From a virus: DNA of 64,000 nt. Positions 33,572-62,842 of this stretch are shown piece after piece. A program made the position numbers and the translations under genes. The stretch covers positions 17,290 to 81,289 of the IMG/VR virus record IMGVR_UViG_3300027759_004238. One strand, 5' to 3'. The notes beneath the pieces were generated by a model, which made no database searches, had not been told where the DNA came from, and saw only the letters and a list, made by a program, of their open reading frames with translations. How positions within the stretch are numbered: position 1 is the first letter of the stretch; the number at the start of each line of letters is the position of its first letter.

Positions 33572-33572
33572 T

Positions 33573-33920: not shown

Positions 33921-33925
33921 TTTTT

Positions 33926-34711: not shown

Positions 34712-35502
34712 AAAAAATAAATTGGTTTTTTTGTTTGAATGAAAATAGGTCCGGGGCCTTTATGGACATGGCTAAAGTTGCAGTTCTAAGTTCATTGAGT
34801 TACAATTTTAATGCTTACTGCTTATATGATGGTGATAATAAAGAATTCATTAATTTTCTAAAAGAAAATGGAGTGACTGTAATATTACACGAATCTTCTT
34901 TTAAAAATAAAATAACAGAAATGGTTGAAGAGGTTGCTCACAAAACTTTTTATGGGGCCTTTTTGCGCATAGATATACCTTTAATAATTAAACAGCTAAA
35001 CTTGGATATAGAGTATTATTTGTATACAGACTGTGACGTTATTTTTACCAGAGATCCTACAGATTTTTTATTGAAACTTACTCCAGAAACCATAGCAGCC
35101 ACTGGAGAATTTAATCAAAATGATGTAAAGATGTTCAACTCCGGTGTAATGTGGTGTAATACCAAAAATATGCTTGATACATATCAGGAATTTTATGATT
35201 TTGTAATTTCCAAACAATTTAAATTTGTAGCGACAGATCAAGGAGCATTAAATGAATTTTATAAACATCAAAAAATATCAGATGAAATAAATTGGAAACC
35301 TTATTGGGGCATAAATGAAAGTGCCTATTTAATTCATTTCCACGGACCTAAACCCTATCATTTTAAAATATACCTTAATGAAAGTAGAAAATTAACAAAC
35401 CCTCACATTAAAAACTACGGTAGTTTTCTTAATGAAAAGCATGAGCTAGAATACAAATACTGCGTTAATCTATACAACGGCTTTTTAAGACAGACCTATT
35501 AA
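34708..35502 (+). CDS. GT8/GT32-like glycosyltransferase
   Basis: 264 residues. YGAFLRIDIPLIIKQLN, then EYYLYTDCDVIF (DxD motif), FNSGVMWCNTKN and ATDQGALN follow the order of GT8-type retaining transferases. It sits 5 nt from the next gene. The donor and acceptor are unknown; a role in glycan attached to the virion or to host surface polymer is inferred from the neighbours. Confidence 0.75.
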   Translation: MKKINWFFCLNENRSGAFMDMAKVAVLSSLSYNFNAYCLYDGDNKEFINFLKENGVTVILHESSFKNKITEMVEEVAHKTFYGAFLRIDIPLIIKQLNLDIEYYLYTDCDVIFTRDPTDFLLKLTPETIAATGEFNQNDVKMFNSGVMWCNTKNMLDTYQEFYDFVISKQFKFVATDQGALNEFYKHQKISDEINWKPYWGINESAYLIHFHGPKPYHFKIYLNESRKLTNPHIKNYGSFLNEKHELEYKYCVNLYNGFLRQTY

Positions 35503-35507
35503 ACATT

Positions 35508-36509
35508 ATGAAAAAAACAAAATACTTTGATAAATCCTCTAGTTTGCACTTTCAACCAGATCCATATTTTTTATATGAGCTTCCTAAAGGATCTTTTATG
35601 TCCATGGATGGGGATATAGATGTAGCTAAAGACTCTTTTGGAGAAATAATACGTTCGTGTTCTGGTAATAGGATTAAAGATAGTAAAAAAGAAGCTATAC
35701 CGGAAAAAATTCCAAAACATACTATAAAGAGTGATAAAAATTTGCTTCAGTTAAATACTGGTAGCCATTACTGGCATCTTCATCATGAGACTATCGGGCA
35801 ATTTTTGCTTTATAAAGATTTGGGTGTTCTTGAAAAATATACACCAGAGAACACTGCCATACTTATGACGTGGTGCAGAGCAGGTAACGTTTTAAAAGAA
35901 GTCCTGCGACACATTTTTAATTTTAATATAGATAGTTATGAGCTAATTTTTGCGGAACGTGATGTTCTATATACTACAAAAGAAAATCTTGTAATTTCAA
36001 CCAAAACATCCACGGCTGGGTGCCTACCTTTATCCTATTTTTCAGAAAAATTAGAAAAATACTTAATTCCTGAAGAGAACCCAACAGATTTTATATATGT
36101 AGGCAGGGATGACTCCGATTGCAGGCTTTTGCTAAATCAAGAAGAAATACTACAGTTTTTAAATGAAAACGATATACCAATTAGAAAAATTACATTAACC
36201 GGAATGCCTTATATAGAACAAGTACAACTATTCAGAAACGCAAAATTTGTAATGGTTATCGGCGGTACAGGAAGTACAAACCAAATATACTGCAACCCAA
36301 ACAAAGCTAAAATACTATTTGTATCTCCTAAGAACGGAGCTTTACAGTGCAGTCAACGCACAGCAAAGGGGATGAATATGGCCTATAGTGGCCTTGAGAT
36401 CGGAGAAAATTTTACTCCCACTAATAAAGCCAGAGCCTCGGATCCTACTTGTGCAAATTTTAAACTCAGAAAAGAGGATGTACTCAAAAAAATACAAAGT
36501 TTGTTATAA
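35508..36509 (+). CDS. GT61-like glycosyltransferase (DUF563)
   Basis: 333 residues. The C-terminal half carries the GT61 pattern: FIYVGRDDSDCRLLLNQEEI, then PYIEQVQLFRNAKFVMVIGG, TGSTNQIYCNP (the G-A-x-x-T-N-x-x-F-x-x-P type site). The N-terminal half has the HHETIGQFLLY motif. GT61 enzymes transfer pentoses or hexosamines to glycans. The family was first known from eukaryotes but is widespread in bacteria and phages. Confidence 0.8.
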   Translation: MKKTKYFDKSSSLHFQPDPYFLYELPKGSFMSMDGDIDVAKDSFGEIIRSCSGNRIKDSKKEAIPEKIPKHTIKSDKNLLQLNTGSHYWHLHHETIGQFLLYKDLGVLEKYTPENTAILMTWCRAGNVLKEVLRHIFNFNIDSYELIFAERDVLYTTKENLVISTKTSTAGCLPLSYFSEKLEKYLIPEENPTDFIYVGRDDSDCRLLLNQEEILQFLNENDIPIRKITLTGMPYIEQVQLFRNAKFVMVIGGTGSTNQIYCNPNKAKILFVSPKNGALQCSQRTAKGMNMAYSGLEIGENFTPTNKARASDPTCANFKLRKEDVLKKIQSLL

Positions 36510-36516
36510 ATCCAAT

Positions 36517-37494
36517 ATGAAAAAAAATAAAATATGTCTAATATTTCACATGCACGGACAACTGCATCCGTTTTTTAATTTATTTTTGTACAGCTTGGCA
36601 CAAAATAAGAATATAGACTTTTTGTTTATCAATGACATAAAAAATAAACCGGAACTACCTTCTAATGTAATAGATAAATTTTTAACTGCTGAAGATTTAA
36701 ATCCCATGTTAACTGCTACTTTAAAAGATTGGTTTGATTTAGATATCCCGGATCCTTTGCTTTTAAACGTTAGAGAAAAAGAAACTGTATTTAAAGCAAA
36801 AACTCCAATGTATAAATTTGCCGATTATAGGTGTTATTTTGATGACATTTTTAAAAAAGACTTAGAGGGGTATGAATATTGTGGTTATTTTGATAATGAT
36901 ACCATAATGGGTGATATTGAAAATATAATACAACCTTTAATGGATAAAAACTATAATTTTATAGGTTCTAGAGGGCATTTTTGTCTATATAAAAATGATG
37001 GGTTTATTAAACAAATTCTCACAAATATTGGTGTTTGGCCTGAAAATGGGCATAAAAATTATTTAAACCTTAGTTTAAATAAACATAAAGATGAACTTAT
37101 TAACAAAAATCATAAACATCTTTTAACTTGTGAAGGGTGGTCACAGGGCACTGTAAAGGTGTATTCTACGTTGATTCCAACTTATAAATTTTATAAGTTG
37201 ACGGAAAACGGTGAAATGTGTGATTTGTTTAACCCCGCAGAAAATGCTTCTTATAAAGATGTTTTCATACCAAGACATTTTGAAGAAAATAATATTAAAA
37301 ATTACACCAACCAGTATTTTTCTTATCAAAAAGGAAAATTATTTAGAATTCAGGACGAGCGGGGCATTAAAACCGAACATCTGTATTTGCACTTAATAGG
37401 CAGAACCAAGCTCATGATTAACAACATTAACATAACTAGTTATAATGAGGGACTGAGTTTTAACATAAAACCTAATTATTTTGAATTAATATGA
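36517..37494 (+). CDS. Glycosyltransferase-like protein, DUF6625 type
   Basis: 325 residues from ATG 36517 (MKKNKICLIFH). KFADYRCYFDDIF, then YCGYFDNDTIMGDIENII (DxD), is the core of the DUF6625/TcdA-TcdB-pore-like GT-A group common in capsule clusters. An in-frame ATG at 36388 would overlap the GT61 gene by 120 nt, so it was rejected. It closes the first glycan island. Confidence 0.7.
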   Translation: MKKNKICLIFHMHGQLHPFFNLFLYSLAQNKNIDFLFINDIKNKPELPSNVIDKFLTAEDLNPMLTATLKDWFDLDIPDPLLLNVREKETVFKAKTPMYKFADYRCYFDDIFKKDLEGYEYCGYFDNDTIMGDIENIIQPLMDKNYNFIGSRGHFCLYKNDGFIKQILTNIGVWPENGHKNYLNLSLNKHKDELINKNHKHLLTCEGWSQGTVKVYSTLIPTYKFYKLTENGEMCDLFNPAENASYKDVFIPRHFEENNIKNYTNQYFSYQKGKLFRIQDERGIKTEHLYLHLIGRTKLMINNINITSYNEGLSFNIKPNYFELI

Positions 37495-39395: not shown

Positions 39396-40763
39396 TTAAG
39401 AAATAATTTCTTTAACCACGTTTCCAAAGTTATCAGTTAATCGAAACTCTCTTCCGTTATAATTGTAAGTCAATTTTTTATGATCAAATCCCATAAGGGC
39501 TAAAATTGTAGCATGTAAATCATGAATATGTACTACATCTTTAATTGATTTGGAGCCGGTTTCATCTGTTTCGCCATATCGCTGGCCGCCTTTAACACCT
39601 CCACCAGCCATCCACACAGAAAATGCCTTACCATTATGATCTCTTCCAGGGGCACCCGCGCCGCCGCCTGCCGTGACAGTACGACCAAACTCTCCACCCC
39701 AGATTACAAGAGTGGAATCTAGCTGTCCTCGCTGTTTAAGGTCAGTAAGAAGAGCAGAGAAGGCTTGGTCATATCTACCAGCGGTCCGGGTCATAGCTGT
39801 TTTTATATCCATATGATGATCATAACCACCAACTTGGACTTGAACATACCGAACTCCTCTCTCTACCAGGCGCCGAGCAACCATCATTTTATTTCCTTCT
39901 TCGTTTTTGCCATATAACTCATGGGTAGCTTCTGATTCTTTAGATATATCAAAAGCGTCTGTTGCTTCTGTTTGCATCTTAAATGCAGTTTCAAATGTTT
40001 CGATTCTAGATTCCAGCTGAATGTCCTTCTGTAGGCGACTCATGTGATCATAATTCATCATCTTGGCTAAATCTAACTGCCGGCGCTGGCGGTCTAATGT
40101 AGAAAACTGACTGGTTAGATTAGAAAGGATCTGATCTGACTTCATGTTATTTTTATATTGAACATTGCAACCCTGAAACATTCCGGGTAAAAAAGCACAC
40201 TGTCTCCATTCTGGACTCCCATTTAAAGAAATGAATGCCGGCATATTTTGATTAGTGGTTCCTAGTCCATATGCCAACCAACTTCCTAAACTAGGCTTGG
40301 GCAATTGTGCTGATCCGGTATTAAACATTTTTTGGGCAATGTTGTGATCAGGAATTTCGGTAAACATGGAATTGATGATCGCCATATCATCAGCATGAGC
40401 TCCTAACTTGGACCATACTTCAGAAATGTGCAATCCAGATTTACCAAATCGAGGAAACTCGAAAGGTGAAGCAAGAAGATTGCCATTGTCTCCTTTTTGG
40501 CCATCTCTTTTTTGCAGTTCGGGTTTGTAATCAAACGTATCAACATGGCTTGGAGCACCACTTGCTACTAGTTGAATGACTGCTCTTGCCTTTACAGGAA
40601 AGTGTGGATTTTTTGCTGCAAGAGGAGATACGGCTTCGGCTGTATTAGGACATACTCCCAACAAAGAAGCTAAAGACAATCCTCCCATACCCCACCCAAA
40701 ATTAGTTAATAATTCTCTCCTAGTAGTAGGAACGGACTCGATATGATTACCACAGTCTTTCAT
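39396..40763 (-). CDS. DUF1501 protein with Tat signal (second of a pair)
   Basis: 455 residues. A twin-arginine signal is visible near the N-terminus: TTRRELLTNFGWGMGGLSLA, then a hydrophobic stretch to residue 50. The mature protein has the alkaline-phosphatase/sulfatase-superfamily DUF1501 pattern: VDTFDYKPEL near the start, PGRDHNGKAFSVWMAGGGV, and the HDLHATILALMGFDH...YNGREFRLTD ending. That ending is typical of planctomycete and verrucomicrobial members. The substrate is unknown. It follows the other DUF1501 gene by 1 nt and is somewhat richer in G+C than its neighbours. Confidence 0.88.
   Translation of the reverse strand: MKDCGNHIESVPTTRRELLTNFGWGMGGLSLASLLGVCPNTAEAVSPLAAKNPHFPVKARAVIQLVASGAPSHVDTFDYKPELQKRDGQKGDNGNLLASPFEFPRFGKSGLHISEVWSKLGAHADDMAIINSMFTEIPDHNIAQKMFNTGSAQLPKPSLGSWLAYGLGTTNQNMPAFISLNGSPEWRQCAFLPGMFQGCNVQYKNNMKSDQILSNLTSQFSTLDRQRRQLDLAKMMNYDHMSRLQKDIQLESRIETFETAFKMQTEATDAFDISKESEATHELYGKNEEGNKMMVARRLVERGVRYVQVQVGGYDHHMDIKTAMTRTAGRYDQAFSALLTDLKQRGQLDSTLVIWGGEFGRTVTAGGGAGAPGRDHNGKAFSVWMAGGGVKGGQRYGETDETGSKSIKDVVHIHDLHATILALMGFDHKKLTYNYNGREFRLTDNFGNVVKEIIS
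39398..39412. terminator. Weak hairpin at the 38608/39396 convergent junction
   Basis: AAGAAA, TAA, TTTCTT right between the two convergent stops. Six AT-rich base pairs. It could act in both directions but is weak. Confidence 0.25.
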
Positions 40764-40764
40764 A

Positions 40765-42036
40765 TTATGCTATAAGTTCTTTTACTGCTGTTCCGTTATA
40801 AACAACCGCAACGGGCCGGCCATCTTGTGTCATAAGCTTAGAATCTGGATCAATTCCAAGCTGAGTATACAGAGTTGCCGCTAGGTTTTCAATAGTTAGA
40901 GGTGAATTATCCACATCTCCTCCAGTTGCATCAGAAGCACCGTGAATATATCCACGTTTAAAGCCTCCACCCGCAAATACTACTGAAAATACTCGAGGCC
41001 AATGATCTCTTCCGCCGTCTTTATTAATTTTTGGAGTACGACCAAACTCAGAAGATACCATTACAATGGTGTCATTAAGCATTCCTCTTTGATCTAAGTC
41101 GTTAATTAAAGTAGAATAAGCCTGATCAAAGGGAGGCAATGTCTTGCTGATCCCTGAACCAATACCAGTATGCATATCCCATCCTCCATATGTTACAGAT
41201 ACAAATCGAACTCCTGATTCAACTAGGCGGCGAGCCATTAACAAACGCTGGCCGGCTTGATTGCGGCCGTAAGCGTCTCGGAGCATATCTTTTTCCTGGG
41301 TCAGATCAAAAGCTCCTCTTGCTTTCGGCGAAGCAATAAGATCATACGCCTGTTGGTAGAACGTATCCATGGCAGTAAGATTGTCACTCTTTTCTAGATA
41401 TTTAAAGTGACTATCAACTGTGTCAAGAATTCCTAGTCTTTTGCTAAAGCGCTCATCACTAACTGTGGTTTGAAGATCTCTTACTTTAAATCCAGGAGCT
41501 GCAGGGTCACTGCCTAAGCTAAAAGGACCAAATGCATTAGAAAGATATCCGGTCCCTGCCACATCGCTACCATTGTTGTCTAATTTTTGTGGAATACAAA
41601 CGTATGCTGGCAAATTATTTTTGCTACCAAATTGATGAGACGTAACTGCACCAAAAGATGGGTAGTTAACTGCTGGAGAAGGCCTATATCCGGTAAACAT
41701 GGTACTGGTTCCTCTCTCGTGAGCGGCATCACCATGGGTCATAGATCGAACTACTGTAATCTTATCTGCAATCTTTGCTGTCTTGGCCAAGTGTTCAGAA
41801 AAATGTACACCAGGAATTACAGTTTGTACGGAACCTAAGGGTCCTCTATACTCTGCAGGTGCTAATGGTTTTGGATCCCACATTTCTTGAGCGGCAGCTC
41901 CGCCGGGCAAATAGATATGTATTACTGACTGTGCCTTCGGAACCAACCCAGACTGCGCTTGCAGTTTGAGCATGTCACCCGTAGCTAAACCCAAACCCCC
42001 AAACAACCCAGTGTATAAAAAATCACGTCTGTTCAT
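40765..42036 (-). CDS. DUF1501 protein with Tat signal (first of a pair)
   Basis: 423 residues. MNRRDFLYTGLFGGLGLA is a twin-arginine signal (R-R-D-F-L) followed by a hydrophobic core. Family motifs follow: HIYLPGGAAAQEMWDPKP, MTHGDAAHERG, FTGYRPSPAVNYPS, GTGYLSNAFGPFSLGSDP and a C-terminal GRDHWPRVFSVVFAGGGF. Mature DUF1501 proteins are exported through Tat, probably acting in the periplasm. A late-type box ends 5 nt before this ATG, so the pair is likely expressed late. Not a known T4-like gene. Confidence 0.9.
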   Translation of the reverse strand: MNRRDFLYTGLFGGLGLATGDMLKLQAQSGLVPKAQSVIHIYLPGGAAAQEMWDPKPLAPAEYRGPLGSVQTVIPGVHFSEHLAKTAKIADKITVVRSMTHGDAAHERGTSTMFTGYRPSPAVNYPSFGAVTSHQFGSKNNLPAYVCIPQKLDNNGSDVAGTGYLSNAFGPFSLGSDPAAPGFKVRDLQTTVSDERFSKRLGILDTVDSHFKYLEKSDNLTAMDTFYQQAYDLIASPKARGAFDLTQEKDMLRDAYGRNQAGQRLLMARRLVESGVRFVSVTYGGWDMHTGIGSGISKTLPPFDQAYSTLINDLDQRGMLNDTIVMVSSEFGRTPKINKDGGRDHWPRVFSVVFAGGGFKRGYIHGASDATGGDVDNSPLTIENLAATLYTQLGIDPDSKLMTQDGRPVAVVYNGTAVKELIA

Positions 42037-43723: not shown

Positions 43724-47629
<3,906 letters not shown>

Positions 47630-51300: not shown

Positions 51301-52359
51301 ATGAAAATTAAGGGGTCACGTATAGGAATATTTTCCGACATACACATAGGTTTGGGTCAAGACAGCCTTGCGTGGCACTCTAACATATTAAATTTTGCAA
51401 CCTGGGCTTCAGAAGTTTATAGTAAAAATGGAATTAATGAAATTTTAATCCCGGGAGATATTTTTCATAATAGAAATGAAATATCTGTTAACACTTTAAG
51501 TACTGCAAAACAATTTTTTGACATATTAAGTGATTTTAAAATTTTTATCTCTACGGGTAATCATGACTGCTATTACAAAGAACGTAGCGACGTTAATTCT
51601 ATATCTTTATTTGATGGTTGGAACAATATTACAGTCATTGATAAAATTCCTCACATTTTTCAAGTAGTTAATTCCACAAAACAACTGTGTATGGTTCCTT
51701 GGGGCACCGACATCAAATCCATACCAGGAGATATGGATTATATTGTAGGCCATTTTGAAATTAAAAGTTTTAAGATGAACAATCACTCTACATGTGATCA
51801 CGGTATGTCATCTGCAGATCTTTTAAATAAATCAAAATTTGTAATAACTGGTCATTTTCATAAAAGAACTCATCGTGAATATGAAAATGGAGAGATTCTA
51901 TATTTGGGTAGTCCTTACCAACAAAATTTTGGAGATGTTGATGAAGAAAGGGGCATTTATATTTTAGATCTTATTACCAATAAATTTGAATTTATAGAAA
52001 ATACAGTATCTCCTAAACACATCAAATTATCTTTGGCAAAAATTCTATCTAAAGAATTACCATCTGATTATATAAAAACTAATGTAACTGGAAATATTGT
52101 ATGTCTTTTAATTGATGTAGATATAACCCCAGAAGAAATTAGTCTAATATCTTCTAAATTGCAAAAACTTAAACCTCAATTTTTTAGATTAGATTATAAA
52201 ATTGCAGATAAAGATTTAACTTTAAATGACTCAGATAATTCTTTTGATTCTGTAGACATTACTAAAAATATTTTAGATTTTATTCAAGCATTAGATATAT
52301 CTCATAAAGATGAGACTTATGAATACTTGAATGAACTTTATCTCAAACTTGCATCTTAA
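51301..52359 (+). CDS. gp47: Recombination endonuclease subunit gp47 (SbcD/Mre11-like)
   Basis: 352 residues (T4: 339). Calcineurin-like phosphoesterase motifs in order: FSDIHIG, PGDIFHNRNE, STGNHDC and TGHFHKRTH, plus GSPYQQNFG. It forms the Mre11-Rad50-like complex with gp46 for end resection and repair. In T4 genes 47 and 46 are neighbours. Here a 6.5-kb glycan island separates them. Confidence 0.92.
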   Translation: MKIKGSRIGIFSDIHIGLGQDSLAWHSNILNFATWASEVYSKNGINEILIPGDIFHNRNEISVNTLSTAKQFFDILSDFKIFISTGNHDCYYKERSDVNSISLFDGWNNITVIDKIPHIFQVVNSTKQLCMVPWGTDIKSIPGDMDYIVGHFEIKSFKMNNHSTCDHGMSSADLLNKSKFVITGHFHKRTHREYENGEILYLGSPYQQNFGDVDEERGIYILDLITNKFEFIENTVSPKHIKLSLAKILSKELPSDYIKTNVTGNIVCLLIDVDITPEEISLISSKLQKLKPQFFRLDYKIADKDLTLNDSDNSFDSVDITKNILDFIQALDISHKDETYEYLNELYLKLAS

Positions 52360-52365
52360 AAATAT

Positions 52366-53283
52366 ATGAAAATTTACATTTTAAATCAAGATAAGTTAAC
52401 GCCGGAAAAGTTATCAGATTGGCATAGTTCTTTTTGTGTTATTCCTTTTATTAAAATTGAAACTTATCAAGAAATAAAAAAAGTACAATTATCAGATTTA
52501 ATTTATGAAAACATAATCCATTCTCTTTTTTTAAATGGTAAAAATTGTGATCATATTTTAGTGGAAGACCCATCTCTAGCAGATGTGATTATAAATCCGT
52601 TTAAATTTAATTTAACAGACATTGAACCTTTTTTAGAATTATCTAATAAATTGAACATAAAAATAATTAATTTTTATTTTGATGATAATTCTGGCATGTT
52701 TAATTTGCCGGATAATGTTATTTTGTATAGATCTTCTTTGTATAAATCAGTTAGACACAAAAATGAAAGAATTTTACCCTTCATATCACCTGATCAAAAA
52801 TATAGTAATTTAATTCCAGAAAAGGCTGTGGGATTTTGTGGAAGGGTTCAACACGGAAGACATAAAATATTAGATTCAATAAAAGAAATTGGATGTAAAA
52901 CAGATTTTATAATAAGAGAGGCCTATTGGCATCACTGGGCAGATAACAATGATAAATTAATACAATCACGAAGAGAATTTAATAAAAATTTAACAGAAAA
53001 TATGTATCATTTTTGTTACAGGGGTCATGGTAATTTTTCTTACAGATTTTATGAAACTTTATCCTTTGGAAGGGTTCCAATATTAATTGATTCTGATGTT
53101 AATTTGCCGTTTGAATCAATTATAAATTGGGAAGATTATATAATCTTTATTAAAGAAGGGGATATTAATAAATTACCATCTATTATTGAAGAAAGGACAT
53201 TTAATTTAGACAAAAATAGAAAATTGTGGGAAGATTACTTTTCGCCTATTGGATATTTTAATAACTTTTTAAAAGACTTATGA
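52366..53283 (+). CDS. Exostosin-like (GT47-type) glycosyltransferase
   Basis: 305 residues. The GT47/exostosin C-terminal pattern is visible: AVGFCGRVQHGRHKIL, then RREFNKNLTENMYHFCYRGH, NFSYRFYETLSFGRVPILID, and DINKLPSIIEE. The N-terminal half is unrecognised. GT47 enzymes move hexuronic or galactose-type sugars. It starts the second glycan island right after gp47 (6-nt gap). Confidence 0.75.
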   Translation: MKIYILNQDKLTPEKLSDWHSSFCVIPFIKIETYQEIKKVQLSDLIYENIIHSLFLNGKNCDHILVEDPSLADVIINPFKFNLTDIEPFLELSNKLNIKIINFYFDDNSGMFNLPDNVILYRSSLYKSVRHKNERILPFISPDQKYSNLIPEKAVGFCGRVQHGRHKILDSIKEIGCKTDFIIREAYWHHWADNNDKLIQSRREFNKNLTENMYHFCYRGHGNFSYRFYETLSFGRVPILIDSDVNLPFESIINWEDYIIFIKEGDINKLPSIIEERTFNLDKNRKLWEDYFSPIGYFNNFLKDL

Positions 53284-54029
53284 ATTTAACAGAAAAAATA
53301 GGAATAGGTATAATAGATGTATACAGTCAAACAGAGTTAAACAACTGTTTAGAATCTATTCCAAAAGAATTGACTAATAATATATTTGTCGTATCAAATA
53401 CTAAAAATACACTCCCTTCTTACAGTGTCCGTCATGAAAAGGAAATTTCTTTTGCTTCCATTAAGAATAGAATATTGACTCATTTTAGATTACAAAAAAA
53501 ACAATTTTTATTTTTAATTAATTCTAATTATGCATTAACAGATCCAGAATTTTTTAATAAAACCATAATAACTGCTTCTAATTTTGGAACATGGATGATG
53601 ACGGGTCCCGGATCTGATACATTAGTGATTGATGATGAAGAAAAGAAAATTTCATTAAACATTTCTCCCGAATTAAATGCAGATGTTATATTCTTATATT
53701 CTAATTTAATAAAAAGATACGGTTACTTTAATGAACAACTTTACAGTAATAATCAATTAGATACTTTAGATTATATATTAAGACTTCGAGCAGATGGTAC
53801 ATATCCCCCAAATCATTTCAATCCATGTGTTAGTCCTGGATTATATAAGTCTGTGGTTAAAATGAATAAAATTAACACTACAGAACAAAAGTCTGCAGAA
53901 ATTAGTTTTGGTCTTTTCTATAACAAACATCAATTTATTCCTGGTCAAAATGATCCTACAGGTGTTTCTGCTGATCAGATGTTTAAATCCATGGAATTAA
54001 TACAGAAAAATTATGCAAGAACCCTTTAA
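53280..54029 (+). CDS. Degenerate GT2-like protein (metal site lost)
   Basis: 249 residues. It aligns by eye with the next two genes: IGIGIIDVYSQTELNNCLES parallels their GVAIITCDRPEFFKQC. FLFLINSNYALTDPEFFNKT stands where they have FILEDDIEIIDD and FLIEDDILIKDP. The EDD metal-binding motif has become NSN, so catalysis as a normal GT2 is unlikely. It may be a partner or pseudo-enzyme. Overlaps the neighbours by 4 and 17 nt. Confidence 0.6.
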   Translation: MNLTEKIGIGIIDVYSQTELNNCLESIPKELTNNIFVVSNTKNTLPSYSVRHEKEISFASIKNRILTHFRLQKKQFLFLINSNYALTDPEFFNKTIITASNFGTWMMTGPGSDTLVIDDEEKKISLNISPELNADVIFLYSNLIKRYGYFNEQLYSNNQLDTLDYILRLRADGTYPPNHFNPCVSPGLYKSVVKMNKINTTEQKSAEISFGLFYNKHQFIPGQNDPTGVSADQMFKSMELIQKNYARTL

Positions 54030-54843
54030 TATTGGCGTAGCAATTATCACATGTGATAGGCCTGAGTTTTTTAAACAATGTGAAGCGTCCCTAGTTAAAA
54101 TAAAGCAGGCTTACAAAAACATTTACACAGTTGTGGTAGATGATGGACTGGAGAGTGTGGTTGTCTCACCTTTTCTTAATTGGTATATTAAAACTGAAGG
54201 CAAGATTGGTGTAGGTAAAGCCAAAAATTTGGCTTTAAAATCTCTTATAGACAAGGGATGTGAACATATATTTATTTTAGAAGATGATATAGAAATTATT
54301 GATGACAATGTTTTTAATTTTTACATAGAAGCCAGCAAAACAACCGGTATAAAACATTTTAATTTTGGGCTACACGGAAATCATAATTTGGATCCACAAG
54401 GACAACCAATTATAAGAAAGAGTGTTAATTACCCAGACGGAACCATAATAGATCTTTATCCTAATATTTTAGGGGCATTGAGTTATTTTCATATAGACGT
54501 TTTAAAAGATGTAGGATTAATGGATGAATCTTTTTATAATGCACTCGAACACGTAGACCATACCTTGCATATATCATTAAAGGGATATCATCCTCCTTTT
54601 AGATGGTTTGCAGATGTTAAAAATTCTTCATTGTATGTAAAGGATATAGTAGCAAACCATGGTCAAAGTAAAATAAGATCTGAGCAAGATTTTATGGAAA
54701 ATTTTAAAAAGAATTTAGATATTTTTATATCTAAAAATAAATTTTCAATAGTAACCAATTATGGTCCTCCGGAAAGGTTTACTTCTGAAAAAGATATGTT
54801 AGAATCTTTAAAGCAGATATGGAAATCTCACCATCAGAAATAG
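54013..54843 (+). CDS. GT2 glycosyltransferase (paralogue A)
   Basis: 276 residues. IGVAIITCDRPEFFKQCEAS, VVVDDGLES, KAKNLALKSLIDKG and HIFILEDDIEIID form a GT2 core. The acceptor side has the LEHVDHTLHISLKGYHPPF region. It is a clear paralogue of the first half of the next gene. A 10-bp palindrome lies in the KAKNLAL coding region. Overlaps the previous gene by 17 nt and the next by 25. Confidence 0.8.
   Translation: MQEPFNIGVAIITCDRPEFFKQCEASLVKIKQAYKNIYTVVVDDGLESVVVSPFLNWYIKTEGKIGVGKAKNLALKSLIDKGCEHIFILEDDIEIIDDNVFNFYIEASKTTGIKHFNFGLHGNHNLDPQGQPIIRKSVNYPDGTIIDLYPNILGALSYFHIDVLKDVGLMDESFYNALEHVDHTLHISLKGYHPPFRWFADVKNSSLYVKDIVANHGQSKIRSEQDFMENFKKNLDIFISKNKFSIVTNYGPPERFTSEKDMLESLKQIWKSHHQK
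54216..54237. repeat. 10-bp perfect palindromic hairpin in the GT2 gene
   Basis: TAAAGCCAAA (54216-54225) and TTTGGCTTTA (54228-54237) with a 2-nt centre. Confidence 0.8.
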
Positions 54844-56294
54844 GAGTAGGTATATTAACCTACAATAGACCTGATTATTATCAGCAAGTTCTTGCAAGTG
54901 TTCCTAGAAATAAAATAGGAACACTTGTTGTTGTTAATGATGGAGAAAATAGTTATGCTACTCCTCAGTGGGATGTAGATCATATAATCCTAAACAAAAA
55001 ACAAAAAGGAGTAGCCAAAAGCAAGAACATACTCCTAAAATATCTCATTGATAAGGGATATAAACACTTATTTCTCATAGAAGATGATATTCTAATTAAA
55101 GATCCGGGTGTGTTTAATGCTTACATTAAAGCCGCAAATTCTACAGGAATACATCATCTGTGTTTTGAAAAGGTGGCAAATAATGAAAAGACCTTAAAAT
55201 TTGTTCTTGAACAACCAGACGGCACTAAACTTGGGTTTTACCACAACCCTCAAGGAGCATTTATGTACATACATTCTAATCTGGTAACTAAATTAGGATA
55301 TTTTGATGAAACTTATATAAATGCATTTGAGCATGTAGATTTTGCATACAATTTAGTTACCAATAATGTAGCACCTCCTTTTTGGTATTTTCCAGATTTA
55401 TTAAACAGTCAAGATTATATAACAGATATACTAGGAAGTAATGAAGAATCTTCTATAACCAATAAAGACAAATACAAAGAAAATTGGGACGTTTCTGCTA
55501 AACATTTTACTAATAAATGGGGCAAATTTACAAACAGTATAGAAGATGAGGGTATTAAAAATTTATGTTATTCTTTAATGTTTTTACAAAATAATTATAG
55601 CAGAAAAAAAGAAATTAATAAAGACAAAAAACTTTCTATAATAATTCCATACAGAGATCGCAAGAATGCTTTAGAAAAAATTATTCCATCTCTTCATTCC
55701 TATGTTTCCAGACAAGTAGAAAATTATGAAATTATTGTTGTGGAACAAGATAACAACAAGCCCTTTAATAAGGGCTTGTTGAACAATATAGGGTACACCA
55801 AGTCTTCTGGTGATTATATATGTTTTCATGATGTGGATCTATTACCCGAATATGCAGACTACAGTTATCCTTCCGTTCCATCCCACATTAGTAGTCATTG
55901 TAGTCAGTTTAATTATGTTAATATCCCGGACAAAATCATGGGAGGGGTTGTTCTCTTTAATAAAGATCATCTAATCAAGGTCAATGGGTACAGTAATCAG
56001 TATGAAGGATGGGGCAAAGAAGATGATGATTTATATGAAAGATGTGTAAGAGAGGGATTAGTTCCTTACAAACACCCCTTTGGTAAATTTTTTAGTGTGT
56101 CTCATATACACCGGTTAAATGATCCTCAAGAAAATATATGTCATGAAATTAATGGGAAAAAATTTAATGCATACAAAAATAGTAATTTAGAATCTCATAA
56201 AATAGATGGCATAACAAATTGTTTAGATAATATAAAACAAGTTGTTTTATCAACTTCTGTAGATAACTATATACATTACTTGGTTTCTTTTTAA
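54819..56294 (+). CDS. Bifunctional GT2-GT7 (beta-1,4-galactosyltransferase-like) protein
   Basis: 491 residues. Half 1 (about 8-230) is a GT2 paralogue of the previous gene (GVGILTYNRPDYY, VVVNDGEN, HLFLIEDDILIKD). Half 2 (about 268-470) follows GT7/beta4GalT order: LSIIIPYRDRKNALEKIIPS, EQDNNKPFNKGLLNNIGY, CFHDVDLLPEYADYSYP, GGVVLFNKDHLIKVNGYSNQ, GWGKEDDDLYERC, then HIHRLNDP for the metal His. The family is best known from animals; bacterial and phage members are less studied. Two long perfect hairpins lie in its coding DNA. Confidence 0.78.
   Translation: MEISPSEIGVGILTYNRPDYYQQVLASVPRNKIGTLVVVNDGENSYATPQWDVDHIILNKKQKGVAKSKNILLKYLIDKGYKHLFLIEDDILIKDPGVFNAYIKAANSTGIHHLCFEKVANNEKTLKFVLEQPDGTKLGFYHNPQGAFMYIHSNLVTKLGYFDETYINAFEHVDFAYNLVTNNVAPPFWYFPDLLNSQDYITDILGSNEESSITNKDKYKENWDVSAKHFTNKWGKFTNSIEDEGIKNLCYSLMFLQNNYSRKKEINKDKKLSIIIPYRDRKNALEKIIPSLHSYVSRQVENYEIIVVEQDNNKPFNKGLLNNIGYTKSSGDYICFHDVDLLPEYADYSYPSVPSHISSHCSQFNYVNIPDKIMGGVVLFNKDHLIKVNGYSNQYEGWGKEDDDLYERCVREGLVPYKHPFGKFFSVSHIHRLNDPQENICHEINGKKFNAYKNSNLESHKIDGITNCLDNIKQVVLSTSVDNYIHYLVSF
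54895..54927. repeat. 12-bp perfect hairpin in the GT2-GT7 gene
   Basis: CAAGTGTTCCTA (54895-54906) and TAGGAACACTTG (54916-54927) with a 9-nt loop. Confidence 0.85.
55754..55781. repeat. 12-bp perfect hairpin in the GT7 half
   Basis: CAACAAGCCCTT (55754-55765) and AAGGGCTTGTTG (55770-55781) with a 4-nt loop TAAT. It spans codons for the conserved KPFNKGLLN motif. Confidence 0.85.
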
Positions 56295-56295
56295 T

Positions 56296-56841
56296 ATGTC
56301 AAAAAAACTTTCCATTTTAACCGCCACGCTCACCAAGAGGTCTTTAGTTTTTCATAATCTAGCACGGATTCTCAATGCTCAATCTAATAATAGTGTTGAA
56401 ATGTTGGCAAATATAGATGACGGGGAAAAAACCATAGGAGCCAAGAGAAATGAACTCTTGAATGCTGCTCAAGGAGATTACATCGTATTTGTAGATGATG
56501 ATGATATGGTGTCTCCTTATTTTATATCTAGTATATTAGAAGCCATAAAAGATCAACCAGATTGTGTTGGAATAGAAGGAATTATTACCCAAAAACATCT
56601 AGGATCCCGCAAATTTATTCATTCTATAAAATATAAAGAATGGTATGAAGAAAATAACATATATTATAGATGTCCAAATCATCTCAATCCAGTAAAGAGA
56701 GAAATTGCTTTAAAGGTAGGATTTCCTGATTTATCATATCAGGAAGATAAAGATTATTCTCTCCGTTTAAAAGAAGAATTAGTTACAGAAGTTTACATAA
56801 CAGATCCTATTTATTTTTATTATCCATCTACAACAGGTTAA
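56296..56841 (+). CDS. Short GT2 glycosyltransferase
   Basis: 181 residues. KLSILTATLTKRS, GEKTIGAKRNELLNAAQGDY, IVFVDDDDMVSPYF (DxDD) and a C-terminal YQEDKDYSLRLKE (E-D acceptor site) make a compact GT2 core with no extra domains. It starts 1 nt after the GT2-GT7 gene. Confidence 0.78.
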   Translation: MSKKLSILTATLTKRSLVFHNLARILNAQSNNSVEMLANIDDGEKTIGAKRNELLNAAQGDYIVFVDDDDMVSPYFISSILEAIKDQPDCVGIEGIITQKHLGSRKFIHSIKYKEWYEENNIYYRCPNHLNPVKREIALKVGFPDLSYQEDKDYSLRLKEELVTEVYITDPIYFYYPSTTG

Positions 56842-56845
56842 TTAT

Positions 56846-57535
56846 ATGAACTCTTATAAAATTTTAATTAAATTTCCAACTCGTGGAAGATCTGAAAAAT
56901 TCTTTGAAGTTTTGGATTTATATATTGAAAAGGCATTTAATATATCCAAAATAGCATTTTTGATTTCAATGGATTCAGATGATCCTCTTATGAATAATGA
57001 AGAAATTATTTGTAAATTGAAGAAATATCAAGAAAGAGTAAAATTAATTTATTTTTATGGAGATAGTAAAACCAAAATACAAGCCGTAAATGCAGATTTA
57101 GAAAAAGTATCTGGTTGGGATATATTACTATTGGCGTCTGATGACATGATTCCTATAATTATGGGGTATGATGAAATTATTCGTCAAGACATGAAGAATA
57201 ATTTTGAAGACACAGATGGTGTATTATGGTACCACGATGGTGCTCAAGACAGGTTAAACACTCTTAGTATATTAGGCAAAAAATATTATGAAAGATTTAA
57301 TTATATATACCATCCAGATTATATTAGTTTGTGGTGTGATAATGAATTTACGGAAGTTTCTATTCAGTTAAAAAGAGTTTATAAATCATCTAAAGTTATC
57401 ATAGAACACCAACATCCAGCATGGCAAAAATCTACATACGATGAATTATATGTCCGCAATGAAGCGTATTATTCTATAGATCAAATAAATTATAACAAGA
57501 GAAGTAAAAATAATTTTAATTTAAAATTAAAATGA
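56846..57535 (+). CDS. GT2-like glycosyltransferase
   Basis: 229 residues. KILIKFPTRGRSEKFFE, FLISMDSDDP, LIYFYGDSKTKIQAVNADL and ILLLASDDMIPIIMGYDEII (SDDM at the metal site) define a GT-A protein of a type common in marine phages and capsule clusters. Overlaps the next gene by 4 nt. Confidence 0.7.
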   Translation: MNSYKILIKFPTRGRSEKFFEVLDLYIEKAFNISKIAFLISMDSDDPLMNNEEIICKLKKYQERVKLIYFYGDSKTKIQAVNADLEKVSGWDILLLASDDMIPIIMGYDEIIRQDMKNNFEDTDGVLWYHDGAQDRLNTLSILGKKYYERFNYIYHPDYISLWCDNEFTEVSIQLKRVYKSSKVIIEHQHPAWQKSTYDELYVRNEAYYSIDQINYNKRSKNNFNLKLK

Positions 57536-58239
57536 AAACAACCTATATTTATCATCACTTGGGATTAGGAGATCATATAATTTGTAACGGGTTAGTAAGA
57601 AAACTTATTAAACTTTATCAAATAGATGAACCCCACATTGCAGTAACTCCTCAAAATTTAGAATCTGTTAAATTTATGTATAGAGACATAAATGGTGTAA
57701 AATATTTGAGCGGACAATATCATCAAATTGATAATTTTATTTCAAAAAATAATTTGACACATCCCTCTTTATTAAAAATAGGATTTGACCATTTGCGTTC
57801 CTTGCAAAAAGATCCTAACAATGTTTTAACCTGGGATGAAATTTTTTACAAACAATATGAGATAGATTTTAACATTAGATGGGAAGGATTTAAATTTAAT
57901 AGAGATAAAGAAAGAGAAAATAATCTATATAATATTTTAAACCCCGACAATCAAGAATATATTTTAATACACAAAAACGGAAGTTCTGGTGGTGATCGTA
58001 TAGTGTATGAAAGTTTGAGAACAGATATAAAAAGAATTTTTGTTGAACCCATAACTCCTATAATTTTTGATTATTGTAAACTCATAGAAAATGCAAAAGA
58101 AATACATGCAGTTGATTCTTGTTTTCATTTACTAGCTGATAGTATATCTACAAACAGTAAATTATTTCATCATGATTTAAAATATTGTAGAAATCCCGAA
58201 GAACCACACAGAACTAAAAATAATTGGATAAAAATATAA
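57532..58239 (+). CDS. Minimal GT9/GT-B-like protein
   Basis: 235 residues. YHHLGLGDHIICNGLVRKL is the GT9 N-terminal glycine-rich loop (GLGD). EYILIHKNGSSGGDRIV and AKEIHAVDSCFHLLADSIS supply the C-terminal sugar-nucleotide site (D-S-x-x-x-H-L-A). It is much shorter than bacterial heptosyltransferases (about 320) and may be a reduced GT-B. Confidence 0.6.
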   Translation: MKTTYIYHHLGLGDHIICNGLVRKLIKLYQIDEPHIAVTPQNLESVKFMYRDINGVKYLSGQYHQIDNFISKNNLTHPSLLKIGFDHLRSLQKDPNNVLTWDEIFYKQYEIDFNIRWEGFKFNRDKERENNLYNILNPDNQEYILIHKNGSSGGDRIVYESLRTDIKRIFVEPITPIIFDYCKLIENAKEIHAVDSCFHLLADSISTNSKLFHHDLKYCRNPEEPHRTKNNWIKI

Positions 58240-58240
58240 T

Positions 58241-58882
58241 ATGGTAGACAACTATGAAAAATTCAAAAACGGTTTAATAAAACAGAAAAATTTTTTTAAA
58301 CACAAAAAAGAATATAATATAGATTATATTAAACAAAGATATGATGTATATAAGGAATTATCTATTAATATGTCATACTTGCGATTGGGTTATTTGATAG
58401 GCTCGTTGGACAAAGTTCCAACGAGTATATTAGATGTTGGTTTCGGAAATGGTGATTTTTTAAATGCAGCTAAATCCAAGATTCAAAACTGTTTTGGTTT
58501 TGAGGTCAATGAATATATAACACCAAGTGGCTGCATTTGTGTAGATGATATCTACAAAGACTCGTATGATGTTGTTTGTTTTTTTGATGTGTTGGAACAT
58601 TTTGAAGACATATATGAAATTAAGAAATTAAAAACAAAATACATTTATATATCTGTCCCAGAATGTCATTATAATTCAGATGAATGGTTTTTAAATTGGA
58701 AACATAGAAGACCAGATGAACATTTGTGGCATTTTAATTTGTCTTCTTTAACCAATTTTATGAATGAAATTGGTTATCATTTAATAAATTCTTCAAATGT
58801 AGAGGATTGTATTAGAGTTCCGTCTGACAATCAAACAAATATATTATCAGCTGTTTTTAAAAACACCTCATTTTTGGTGTAA
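58241..58882 (+). CDS. Class I SAM-dependent methyltransferase
   Basis: 213 residues. TSILDVGFGNGDFLNAAKSK is motif I (D-V-G-x-G-x-G), VVCFFDVLEHFEDI motif IV, then YIYISVPECHYNSDEWF and HLWHFNLSSLTNFMNEIGYH, as in Methyltransf_23 proteins of sugar-modifying clusters. It may methylate a sugar made or attached by the neighbouring enzymes. A 9-bp perfect hairpin lies at 58402-58425 in its coding DNA. Confidence 0.8.
   Translation: MVDNYEKFKNGLIKQKNFFKHKKEYNIDYIKQRYDVYKELSINMSYLRLGYLIGSLDKVPTSILDVGFGNGDFLNAAKSKIQNCFGFEVNEYITPSGCICVDDIYKDSYDVVCFFDVLEHFEDIYEIKKLKTKYIYISVPECHYNSDEWFLNWKHRRPDEHLWHFNLSSLTNFMNEIGYHLINSSNVEDCIRVPSDNQTNILSAVFKNTSFLV
58402..58425. repeat. 9-bp perfect hairpin in the methyltransferase gene
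   Basis: CTCGTTGGA (58402-58410) and TCCAACGAG (58417-58425) with a 6-nt loop. Confidence 0.8.
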
Positions 58883-58888
58883 TTTTCA

Positions 58889-58907
58889 TTAGTTTGAGTT
58901 AAACTAA
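58889..58907. promoter_or_regulatory. Inverted repeat just upstream of gene 46
   Basis: TTAGTTT (58889-58895), 5 nt, AAACTAA (58901-58907). It ends 1 nt before the TTG start of gene 46 and could be an operator or a translation-controlling hairpin. Confidence 0.35.
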
Positions 58908-58908
58908 A

Positions 58909-60729
58909 TTGGTGAAGCAAATTTTATTTAAAAAAATAATTATACAAAATTTTCTCTCAGTTGGTGAAGAGTCTCTGGAGTTATGGTTTAATTCAGGCAT
59001 AAGTCTTATTACTGGGGAAAATAGAGACAAGGGTGGTCGCAACGGTGTAGGAAAAAGTACCCTAATTGAATCAGTTTACTGGACATTATTCGGAAATACC
59101 ATAAGAGACATTAAAAGAGATAAAATTATCCACAATCAATCCAAAGGTGGGTGTTGTGTTGTTTTAAATTTTGATGTTATTACTTCAAAGAAAATAGACA
59201 GTTATATACTAACACGAAGGGCCGAACCCAACAAAACAGAATTATTATGTAATGGAGTTGACATAACACGATCCTCCTTACCCAAAACAGACGAACTCAT
59301 AAAAGAAATTATAGGAGCCAGTGAAGAAGTGTTTCAGAATGCAGTTATTATGACTGCTAATAACACACTACCTTTTATGGCTCAGAAGAAGGTAGACAAG
59401 CGTAAATTTGTTGAAGGCGTTTTGCATCTAGGCATCTTCGGCGAAATGTTATTGCAGGTTCGCTCAGATCTTAATGAGTGTAAGAAACAAAATGAACAAG
59501 ACAGTTTTAATTTTTTAGACAATCAAAAAAACCTAGAAACTTACAAAAATCAATCCAAAAAATGGAAAGACAATCTAGATTTAAAAGTATTTTCCTTGCA
59601 GAAAAAGGTTAATGAAAATTTAGAAACTATCAAAAATTTAGAAGAAAAAAATGCAGATATTAAAGGAGTTGAAAATGCTCAACAAAATTTAAAAGAACTA
59701 ATTGATAAGAAAGAATTTAAAATATCTCAACTCCAAACTCTGTCTTTAGAATGTTCCGAAAAGATTTTTGATATAAATTTAAAAATAAATGCATTAAATC
59801 TTTCCGTAAAAACAAACAAAGAAGAAATTTTAAAACTACAGCAAACCACAAAAACTTGTCCGGTGTGTAAAAGAGATTTTGAGAATGTAGATGAAATACA
59901 TATTAAACAGCTCATTCAAGAATTTGATTCTAATATAAAAATTGATCAAGAATTAATTAAGTTTACTTCTAAGGAATTACAAAGTCAGAAAGAAAATTGC
60001 AATATAATATCTGATGCTATTAATAATTTAAATTTAGATATTAAGAAACATGGGAAAGAATTAAATTCTTTAAATTTGGTCTCCCAGGAAATAAATCAAT
60101 TTAAAGGCCGTAATGAAGAAATTCACAATGAAATTTTAGAAATACAGAACGAACCCAACCAATTTACTCTTTTAATAGACACCGCTTCTTCAAAAAATGA
60201 AGAACTGGAAACAAAACTATCTAACATTCAAAAAAGGATAAATGTTTTAGAATCTGCCAAGTATATCGTGTCAGAAGAAGGTGTAAAAACCTTCATCATT
60301 AAAAAGATGTTAAATATCCTCAATTCAAAACTTAATTTCTATCTACAAGCTCTAGAAGCTCCTTGTAAGTGTGAGTTTAATGAAATGTTTGAAGAGACTA
60401 TTTATAACGAGAGAGGAATAGAATGTTCTTACTTTAATTTTAGCGGAGGAGAACGGAAGAGAATAGATCTAGCCATCCTCTTTATGTTCCAAGATGTATT
60501 ACGCATGCAGGCTGGAACCTCTTTCTCCTTGAGTATGTATGATGAATTATTTGATTCCGCCCTAGATGAAAAGGGAGTTGACAAAATTCTTAATATTCTT
60601 CGGACTCGGGTAGAAACCTACCAGGAAAGTGTGTATATCATATCACATAACAAAGCCACGGACAGAGCCGGAATAGATCAAGTCATTCTTTTAGAAAAAC
60701 AAGATGGCGTTACTAGAATTTTGCAGTAA
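58909..60729 (+). CDS. gp46: Recombination endonuclease subunit gp46 (SbcC/Rad50-like)
   Basis: 606 residues (T4: 560). The ABC-type N-terminal half has SLITGENRDKGGRNGVGKST (Walker A with an insert). Long coiled coils carry a zinc hook CPVC (TKTCPVCKRDFEN, about residue 318). The ABC signature is FSGGERKRIDLAI and Walker B is LSMYDELFDSALD. It works with gp47 in end processing. No ATG is available: the frame starts at TTG 58909 or GTG 58912, right after a 7-bp inverted repeat. Confidence 0.9.
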   Translation: MVKQILFKKIIIQNFLSVGEESLELWFNSGISLITGENRDKGGRNGVGKSTLIESVYWTLFGNTIRDIKRDKIIHNQSKGGCCVVLNFDVITSKKIDSYILTRRAEPNKTELLCNGVDITRSSLPKTDELIKEIIGASEEVFQNAVIMTANNTLPFMAQKKVDKRKFVEGVLHLGIFGEMLLQVRSDLNECKKQNEQDSFNFLDNQKNLETYKNQSKKWKDNLDLKVFSLQKKVNENLETIKNLEEKNADIKGVENAQQNLKELIDKKEFKISQLQTLSLECSEKIFDINLKINALNLSVKTNKEEILKLQQTTKTCPVCKRDFENVDEIHIKQLIQEFDSNIKIDQELIKFTSKELQSQKENCNIISDAINNLNLDIKKHGKELNSLNLVSQEINQFKGRNEEIHNEILEIQNEPNQFTLLIDTASSKNEELETKLSNIQKRINVLESAKYIVSEEGVKTFIIKKMLNILNSKLNFYLQALEAPCKCEFNEMFEETIYNERGIECSYFNFSGGERKRIDLAILFMFQDVLRMQAGTSFSLSMYDELFDSALDEKGVDKILNILRTRVETYQESVYIISHNKATDRAGIDQVILLEKQDGVTRILQ

Positions 60730-60738
60730 TATAAATAT

Positions 60739-61491
60739 ATGTCTGAAGAAAATTATCTATTGATCAGTGATGATGGACCTGGTTTTCATACCATTGAAGG
60801 TGAAGGAAAGTTTATTGGTTATCCGAGTGTATTCATGAGGCTGTTTGGGTGCAACCTAACCTGCCGCGGATGGGCATCACCAGATTCTCCGTGGGGTTGT
60901 GATTCTTATATCTCTTGGTCTAAGAAAAATAAGTATAGTTTTGAACAATTGTTCAAATTTTATAAAGAAAATGGATTAGCTGATAACCTCCGTCGAGGTG
61001 ATATATGGAAAATTACTGGAGGAGAACCCATGCTCCGGCAAGAACCTCTATTAAAGTTTGTAGAAGCCTTTAAAAATCACTTTGGATTTCTTCCTCGTAT
61101 AGATTTTGAGACCAATGGTACCATTCTACCGGATCCAAAATGGGTAGAAGAATATAATGCAACTTTTACAACGTCTCCAAAATTATCCTCTAACGGAGAT
61201 TCTAAACAAAAGCGTTATAATTTACAGGCTTTAAAATTTCATGTAGATCACAATTCCTGTTTTAAATTTGTCATCAAGGATGAAACTGATATGCAAGAGT
61301 TGTTTATAGATTTTATTAATCACCCTGGTCTTATGATTCCTCGGGATCTTATATGGATTATGGTATGTGCCGGTTCAAGAGCAGAACATATAGATAATGC
61401 AGAACCAGTGGCAGAATTGTGTAAGCAGTATGGATTTAAAATGTCTCCTCGTTTGCATTTAATGGTTTGGGATAGAGCGTTAAGAGTCTAG
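60739..61491 (+). CDS. queE: 7-carboxy-7-deazaguanine synthase QueE
   Basis: 250 residues. A radical-SAM QueE: HTIEGEGKFIGYPSVFMRLF, then the cluster region CNLTCRGWASPDSPWGCDS, KITGGEPMLRQEPLLKF, RIDFETNGT and LIWIMVCAG. It converts CPH4 to CDG. The cluster cysteines read C-x3-C-x11-C instead of the usual C-x3-C-x2-C, with a loop before the third Cys, a form I associate with phage QueE. It follows gp46 by 9 nt and pairs functionally with QueC at 26746. Confidence 0.88.
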   Translation: MSEENYLLISDDGPGFHTIEGEGKFIGYPSVFMRLFGCNLTCRGWASPDSPWGCDSYISWSKKNKYSFEQLFKFYKENGLADNLRRGDIWKITGGEPMLRQEPLLKFVEAFKNHFGFLPRIDFETNGTILPDPKWVEEYNATFTTSPKLSSNGDSKQKRYNLQALKFHVDHNSCFKFVIKDETDMQELFIDFINHPGLMIPRDLIWIMVCAGSRAEHIDNAEPVAELCKQYGFKMSPRLHLMVWDRALRV

Positions 61492-61522: not shown

Positions 61523-62842
61523 ATGGCCTTAAAATTAAAATCTTCAGACAATTCATCTCATAATTTAGATGATAAAATAGTTTACGAATATTCTTCTGTG
61601 GAACATGGTATTCCAAATTTACCATCTGGACATTATCAATCTTTTTTACCCAAGAACCGATACATCTCATCTGTTCCTATTCGGATTCCAGTGCAGGCAC
61701 CTGTAGTAATGCAAGAAGCCAACTTACCACGAGCATTAAACTATTATGCAGATTACGGTGGTTGTGGTTTCTGGCGTATGATATGGCCCGAAATTTCTCT
61801 CAATGCTTATCATAAGGCTTGTGTATCTGGATTAACTAGTATGGTTTTAGATTTGCGTTTTTATCAAAACATTAAAACTATAAGAATGCAAAGACAGGCA
61901 ACTCCGGTACAAAAAAGTTTTATACAAGAACTTCACAAACATAAAGATCAAATTGGTTATAAATTGGTGTATGAAATTGATGATGTGGTCTTCCGAAATG
62001 ATATTCCAGATTATAATAGATGCAAGGAAGCTTTTGCATCCTCAGAAGTGGAAAACACTATTTTAGAAATTATGGAATTGATGGACGAGATGACAGTCAC
62101 CTGTCAATATATGAAAGATTATTATATTGAAAAAACTGGTTCGAAGAAAGTAACAGTCATTCCTAATTATGCTCCAAAACAATGGTTGGGACATTACTAT
62201 TATCCAGATAGAATAGCAAAACTTTATGATCAACATAAGAGGAGACCACGAGTATTGTATGCTGGTTCCGGCACTCATATAGATGTTGCCAATAAAACTG
62301 GACTAAAGGATGATTTTGCTCACGTTGTTGATGAAATTATTAAGGCTCGCAAGAAATTTAAATTTGTTTGGAAAGGAACATTTCCACTTTCGGTTAAACC
62401 CTTTATTGATAATGGTGAAATGGAATTTTTACCGTGGTCTTCTTTGTTTGATTTACCCAAAGCCATACACGATGCAGCATGTAACGTAAGTTTTGCACCC
62501 TTGCAAGATAATATTTTCAATAAATCTAAAAGTAACATTAAAATTGTTGAATCCGGTGCATTTGGCATGCCAGGAACCTTTCAAAATCTCTGTACATATA
62601 AAGATGCAGAGTTAAAATTTGATAAAGGTGTTGATCTGATAAGCCAATTAGAACACATTACATCAGATTATGACAGATATATGAAACTTTCTAAAAATAT
62701 TCACGATTTTACGGACAAATTGTGGTTAGAAGATCATTTGGATGAATTTGAGGCAATGTATTTTACTAATTGGGGATCTAAAGAGCGAAATTTAAAAAGT
62801 CCTAATTTAATTAAACTAAATCAAGATCAGTTATCCAAATAA
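61523..62842 (+). CDS. GT4-like (GT-B) glycosyltransferase
   Basis: 439 residues. YKLVYEIDDVVFRND and MDEMTVTCQYMKDYYIEKTG followed by KKVTVIPNYAPKQW are the N-terminal half of a GT-B enzyme. RPRVLYAGSGTHIDV and CNVSFAPLQDNIFNKSKSNI, then KIVESGAFGMP, form the donor-binding E-x7-E half. Proteins of this type are frequent in T4-like cyanophages near replication genes, of unknown acceptor. It could act on phage DNA or on surface polymer. Lies between queE and gp43. Confidence 0.78.
   Translation: MALKLKSSDNSSHNLDDKIVYEYSSVEHGIPNLPSGHYQSFLPKNRYISSVPIRIPVQAPVVMQEANLPRALNYYADYGGCGFWRMIWPEISLNAYHKACVSGLTSMVLDLRFYQNIKTIRMQRQATPVQKSFIQELHKHKDQIGYKLVYEIDDVVFRNDIPDYNRCKEAFASSEVENTILEIMELMDEMTVTCQYMKDYYIEKTGSKKVTVIPNYAPKQWLGHYYYPDRIAKLYDQHKRRPRVLYAGSGTHIDVANKTGLKDDFAHVVDEIIKARKKFKFVWKGTFPLSVKPFIDNGEMEFLPWSSLFDLPKAIHDAACNVSFAPLQDNIFNKSKSNIKIVESGAFGMPGTFQNLCTYKDAELKFDKGVDLISQLEHITSDYDRYMKLSKNIHDFTDKLWLEDHLDEFEAMYFTNWGSKERNLKSPNLIKLNQDQLSK

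Follow-up and report, generated by a model that had tools for sequence, protein, structure and literature searches.

A clade-wide glycan gene cassette slot between recombination genes 47 and 46 of T4-like phages

Hypervariable, glycosyltransferase-rich islands at a fixed genomic address have been described in T4-like phages. The host recognition cluster of pelagimyophages and cyanomyophages is one such island, and is located between vrlC and gp14 together with tail fibre genes (PMC7029224). The cassette slot described here is instead located in the recombination operon, between genes 47 and 46, and has a fixed anchor gene, O2. By this location, and with no tail fibre family among the matches listed for its islands, it does not classify as a host recognition cluster.

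T4, RB43, cyanophages, Melnitz and HTVC008M share this 55-47-46 neighbourhood, which in the marine phages is preceded by uvsY-uvsW. Genes 47 and 46 are adjacent or nearly so in T4, RB43, cyanophages and Melnitz, and the distance between them in named T4-likes is 0 to ~700 bp (no gene, one or two small genes, or a 2OG oxygenase), compared with 4-17 kb here. The preliminary description of this DNA called the two genes adjacent in T4, which is nearly the case: two tiny genes, 46.1 and 46.2 (~450 bp in total), lie between them.

The flagellin glycosylation islands of Pseudomonas and Erwinia (fgt1/fgt2 type) share several components with the phage cassette: homologues of the cassette gene O3, distant homologues of d1 (a glycosyltransferase gene downstream of gp46) and methyltransferases. 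They encode soluble enzymes acting on a surface protein, as is proposed below for the phage. In Pseudomonas syringae, Fgt1, encoded beside fliC, transfers rhamnose onto a flagellin serine (PMC3927599). The flagellin islands are bacterial chromosomal loci next to fliC, whereas the phage cassette has no recognised acceptor gene.

Genes of the 47-46 interval

The window (the whole stretch of DNA analysed, 64,000 nucleotides) spans positions 17290-81289 of a virus record 81,289 bases long. It encodes UvsY, UvsW, a late sigma factor, gp47 and gp46 in order and on one strand (uvsW and the sigma factor gene were named from position and homologous order), an arrangement equal to that of HTVC008M, Melnitz and Synechococcus phages. 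The interval and its surroundings contain the following features.

51301..52359, + strand: gp47, SbcD-like recombination nuclease subunit, left flank (phrog_100, E-value: 2.7e-63; Metallophos)
52366..53283, + strand: o1, exostosin-type GT47 (PF03016, E-value: 4e-13)
53280..54029, + strand: O2, GT-A fold protein, clade-signature gene (weak PHROG match; AlphaFold2 model)
54013..54843, + strand: O3, GT-A glycosyltransferase with intact EDD motif (alignment and fold)
54819..56294, + strand: o4, O3-like/GT2-like domain fused to GT7, galactosyltransferase-type (PF13733, E-value: 3e-20; PF02709, E-value: 7.5e-18)
56296..56841, + strand: o5, short GT2 glycosyltransferase (PF00535, E-value: 2.8e-9)
56846..57535, + strand: o6, glycosyltransferase (phrog_14945, E-value: 6.8e-16)
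57532..58239, + strand: o7, cassette protein without a family (relatives in other islands, 26-45% by tblastn)
58241..58882, + strand: o8, class I methyltransferase (PF13489, E-value: 1.1e-14)
58909..60729, + strand: gp46, SbcC-like subunit, right flank (phrog_77, E-value: 7e-89)
61523..62842, + strand: d1, glycosyltransferase downstream of gp46 (phrog_7162, E-value: 8e-21)

The gap between gp47 and gp46 is 6,549 bp and holds eight ORFs, all on the + strand (starts at 52366, 53280, 54013, 54819, 56296, 56846, 57532 and 58241). These are tightly packed, neighbours lying up to 6 nt apart or overlapping by up to 25 nt (+6 to -25), with a spacer of 26 nt before gp46, confirming the eight-gene, same-strand block of 6.5 kb, with overlaps, that the preliminary description had reported. 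Its assignment of the block to glycosyltransferases and a methyltransferase was also borne out by Pfam, PHROG and fold matches for seven of the eight genes: six encode glycosyltransferases or glycosyltransferase-fold proteins and one a methyltransferase. For the eighth, o7, Pfam gave nothing over the cut-off and the PHROG search gave nothing. The o4 product is 36% identical to that of O3 across 239 aa. The substrate of o8 is presumed to be a sugar (O-methylation). Judging from the start codons of its relatives, gp46 more likely begins at the GTG at 58912 than at the TTG at 58909. A QueE-like gene (60739-61491) separates gp46 from d1 in the window and is so placed only in some relatives.

O2 and O3 are both predicted to adopt a GT-A fold (AlphaFold2 models, pLDDT 92 in each case). 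The O3 model matches B4GALNT1, chondroitin polymerase, TarS and WrtF, and the acidic metal motif EDD (E90 D91 D92) is invariant in the alignment. The O2 model matches POMGNT1 and GnT-I. In all 23 O2 sequences the acidic metal motif is replaced by x-S-N, with S82 and N83 invariant, and O2 may be inactive or perform other chemistry.

Distribution and history of the slot

Searches of viral contigs gave 52 loci for gp46 and 80 for gp47. The slot was filled in all 27 records carrying both genes (gap of 6.8-16.7 kb); the gaps of L088 and L102 are 3.9 and 5.7 kb. Of the gp47 relatives at 44-100% identity for which the DNA beyond gp47 could be read, O2 lies downstream in 51 and is absent in one (L104). 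At 36-41% identity, 47 and 46 are contiguous in all 21 readable relatives. The gp47 tree likewise splits occupied from empty loci (island clade 96/98, empty clade 98/88). Around the empty site, the order uvsY-uvsW-55-47-46-d1 is preserved in the loci examined, and d1 is conserved in the island and empty-site clades alike.

Because essentially the whole of this large, uncultured T4-like clade fills the slot, starting with the same gene, the occupied state is ancestral to the island clade, most simply through a single gain at its base. The preliminary description had proposed an insertion hotspot in an otherwise conserved operon, which implies a recent interruption. The content of the site is indeed variable, with strong turnover between relatives, and this phage has gained o1 locally. 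The recent interruption of the operon is refuted by the occupied state that the whole clade shares, with O2 in first place, and a recent insertion hotspot in an otherwise intact 47-46 operon of this phage is very improbable. A fixed island in relatives, which the preliminary description had set against its own proposal, was found with respect to address and left anchor but not content. Foreign composition was rejected as a mark of recent gain: the islands and their flanks have similar GC contents, and base composition thus does not point to a recent foreign source.

A true empty site is found only in the sister clade, in other T4-likes and in one apparent secondary loss, L104. The gp47 of L104 (53% identity) borders an empty junction, and its placement is unsettled in the gp47 tree; in a five-gene FastTree phylogeny it nests within the island clade (local supports of 0.94 and 0.98). 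Its linker of ~35 bases carries TTGATT-N16-TATAAT six bases before gp46, arranged as in the occupied loci. L104 is regarded, with moderate confidence, as having lost the cassette secondarily.

In four of the seven empty-site records that were searched, a single O3 homologue is present at a different place, within a separate glycan cluster. In this sister T4-like clade (L164-L167) the cluster has a similar enzyme mix but a different address and no full-length O2, which was found only in the island clade; the O3 homologue adjoins a thymidylate-kinase-like gene in three records and is a few genes away in the fourth. Since the sister clade has glycan clusters of its own, the modules belong to a wider group, and it is the 47/46 address and O2 that are particular to the island clade. 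Descent of the slot from a common thymidylate-kinase site was rejected, as no similar cluster is present there in the eight island-clade records examined; use of that site is thus confined to the sister clade.

Megablast against named phages gave no match, and O2, O3 and d1 had no match at an E-value of 1e-5 in 50,697 named phage records; the lineage is therefore essentially unstudied. A Nitrotoga MAG contig (L168), which carries an O3 relative at 56%, was rejected as a phage contig because its other genes are unlike those of this phage, and no host is therefore claimed.

Turnover of contents and a probable gp46 promoter

The 313 predicted proteins of 24 islands fall into 115 families, 59 of which are restricted to one island. 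Only O2 (24/24) and O3 (21/24) are present in half or more of the islands, and conservation declines from the gp47 end toward the gp46 end. O2 is the first slot gene in 23 of the 24. The exception is this phage, the only one of the 24 with o1 between gp47 and O2; an o1 relative occupies position 4 in L073. The record near-identical to this phage (L001/L084) likewise has o1 between gp47 and O2, and in nearly all relatives at 44-100% gp47 identity O2 directly follows gp47.

Close relatives differ in their interiors. L056 and L060 have flanks that are 83% and 85% identical and largely unrelated interiors; one breakpoint is close to the O2/O3 junction and the other is 15 bases inside gp46. In L064 and L066, with flanks 93-94% identical, the middle has been replaced. 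Exchange boundaries lie on the left in O2/O3 or the next core genes and on the right at or before gp46. The slot is thus a hypervariable island at a fixed address, with conserved flanks and contents that differ among close relatives, and we infer that contents are exchanged through homologous recombination in these flanks. The slot architecture and its history in the clade are proposed with high confidence. A second cluster in the window (32498-37494, + strand), with a GT61, a beta-1,4-glycosyltransferase-like protein and a DUF6625 protein, is missing from the equivalent position in L195, the nearest relative, and marks another variable site.

A TTGANN-N16/17-TATAAT-like motif usually ends 3-12 bases upstream of gp46. 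In a promoter scan, 16 of 24 island loci scored at least 9 of 12, compared with 2.3 in shuffles (maximum 6); in further loci the count was 10 of 19 versus 2.0. Some of these loci are related, which makes the counts partly dependent on one another. Ahead of other island genes, 27 of 309 sites (9%) scored at least 9. At empty-site junctions 7 of 17 scored 9, mostly in one common stretch at the end of the gp47 coding sequence, so the contrast between occupied and empty sites rests on the position and form of the motif. The same scan found no recognisable promoter motif before gp46 in the window itself. In most members, gp46 probably has its own sigma70-like promoter, as predicted from sequence. 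In most island loci and in L104, a -10-like hexamer often precedes the gp46 start codon by six bases, which suggests, if the promoter is real, that many gp46 messages are near-leaderless, starting at or near the start codon. In L054 (gp47-gp46 on the + strand) a strong hairpin lies ~60 bases before gp46, and a T run comes after it, immediately ahead of the gp46 start; lying 3' of a promoter-like motif, these are a possible attenuator.

Candidate functions of the cassette

Protein O-glycosylation is favoured because the bacterial relatives of O3 lie largely in flagellin-glycosylation loci. In the genome collection, O3 has relatives at 27 bacterial loci, 14 of which carry flagellin or other flagellar genes (Pseudomonas, Erwinia, Lonsdalea, Tatumella, Brenneria, Pectobacterium, Mixta and Winslowiella; 36-43% identity to O3). 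The remaining half lie outside flagellin loci, which counts against this assignment, as does the sister clade's glycan cluster, which has another address and includes nucleotide-sugar enzymes typical of O-antigen. D1 is 20-26% identical to part of the large glycosyltransferase of the flagellin loci (best E-value: 6e-16). A simple hydropathy scan found a transmembrane-like segment in only 5 of the 313 island proteins, and this scarcity of membrane proteins fits soluble acceptors. By analogy with the bacterial loci, protein glycosylation is a plausible, though tentative, assignment for the cassette.

The main rival remains remodelling of the host lipopolysaccharide or O-antigen during infection, which would block co-infecting phages. 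The islands hold GDP-mannose dehydratase, RmlD and epimerase families, GT10, GT25, GT8 and heptose-related PHROGs. The host recognition cluster that pelagimyophages carry has been proposed to play the same role (PMC7029224). The near absence of membrane proteins argues against such remodelling, however, as does the location of the nearest cultured bacterial relatives of O3, mostly in flagellin loci; flippase, polymerase and ligase families are not among the matches listed. Host remodelling is considered possible but doubtful.

A third candidate function is glycosylation of phage DNA, as performed by the T4 alpha-glucosyltransferase, whose gene a-gt is two genes away from gene 47. A 2OG oxygenase separates 47 from 46 in HTVC008M, and o4 weakly matches TAGT and a beta-glucosyl-HMC glucosyltransferase PHROG, although the TAGT match was never over the cut-off. 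T4-type glucosylation of hydroxymethylcytosine needs a hydroxymethylated base, made by dCMP hydroxymethylase or a Tet/JBP enzyme. This route was rejected because no such enzyme was found in 30 records, some of which exceed 200 kb: neither a thymidylate-synthase-fold family (which includes dCMP hydroxymethylase) nor a Tet/JBP enzyme. The result is limited by the fragmentary records and by the Tet/JBP search, which was silent in control genomes too. The window also encodes QueC (26746-27489), which with the QueE-like gene forms part of the 7-deazaguanine pathway, but DpdA-type deazaguanine insertion was rejected because no TGT/DpdA family was found in 17 records. The sugar and methyl genes of the cassettes are also more numerous and variable than known DNA glycosylation requires, and a DNA target is disfavoured and judged quite unlikely.

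Elsewhere in the window, a 1301-aa collagen-repeat protein (43724-47629) reaches 56% GC in a genome of 30-35% GC, and similar repeats occur in three other clade records only. A collagen-like fibre was rejected as the common glycosylation target, such proteins being present in only 4 of 30 records. A 460-aa protein (14386-15768) matches head decoration/head-tail adaptor PHROGs and is a candidate glycosylated surface protein. Two adjacent DUF1501 genes (39396-42036), unusual in a phage, are present in some relatives (L196 and L197) but not in L195.

The proposed model for protein glycosylation by the cassette is as follows. Soluble cytoplasmic glycosyltransferases and sugar-modifying enzymes would assemble a short, variable, partly methylated glycan on an acceptor, putatively a virion-exposed phage protein or a host surface protein. 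The cassette would function in the manner of the bacterial loci for flagellin O-glycosylation, which contain relatives of O3 and d1, and the resulting phage or host surface would differ between close relatives. As gp46 has a predicted promoter of its own in most members, its expression would not necessarily be lost when the cassette changes. This account as a whole (a clade cassette slot, exchanged interiors and O-glycosylation of surface proteins) is considered reasonably probable. More speculatively, and on the unlikely side, the slot could be a phage serotype locus whose exchangeable cassettes coat virion proteins with variable O-glycans, with O2, its metal site lost, serving as anchor and maybe as adaptor or chaperone for the first transfer step.

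No description was found in the open-access literature of a clade-wide slot of this kind in the 46/47 recombination operon, in which the first gene is fixed, the exchange boundaries are sharp and gp46 probably has a promoter to itself. As far as found, the clade-wide slot is ordinary in kind, given the glycan hypervariability of T4-likes, and new in place and organisation. Cassette exchange probably alters the sugars on phage or host surface proteins, and near-identical phages that differ mainly in their cassette provide a natural comparative system for the purpose of phage glycans.
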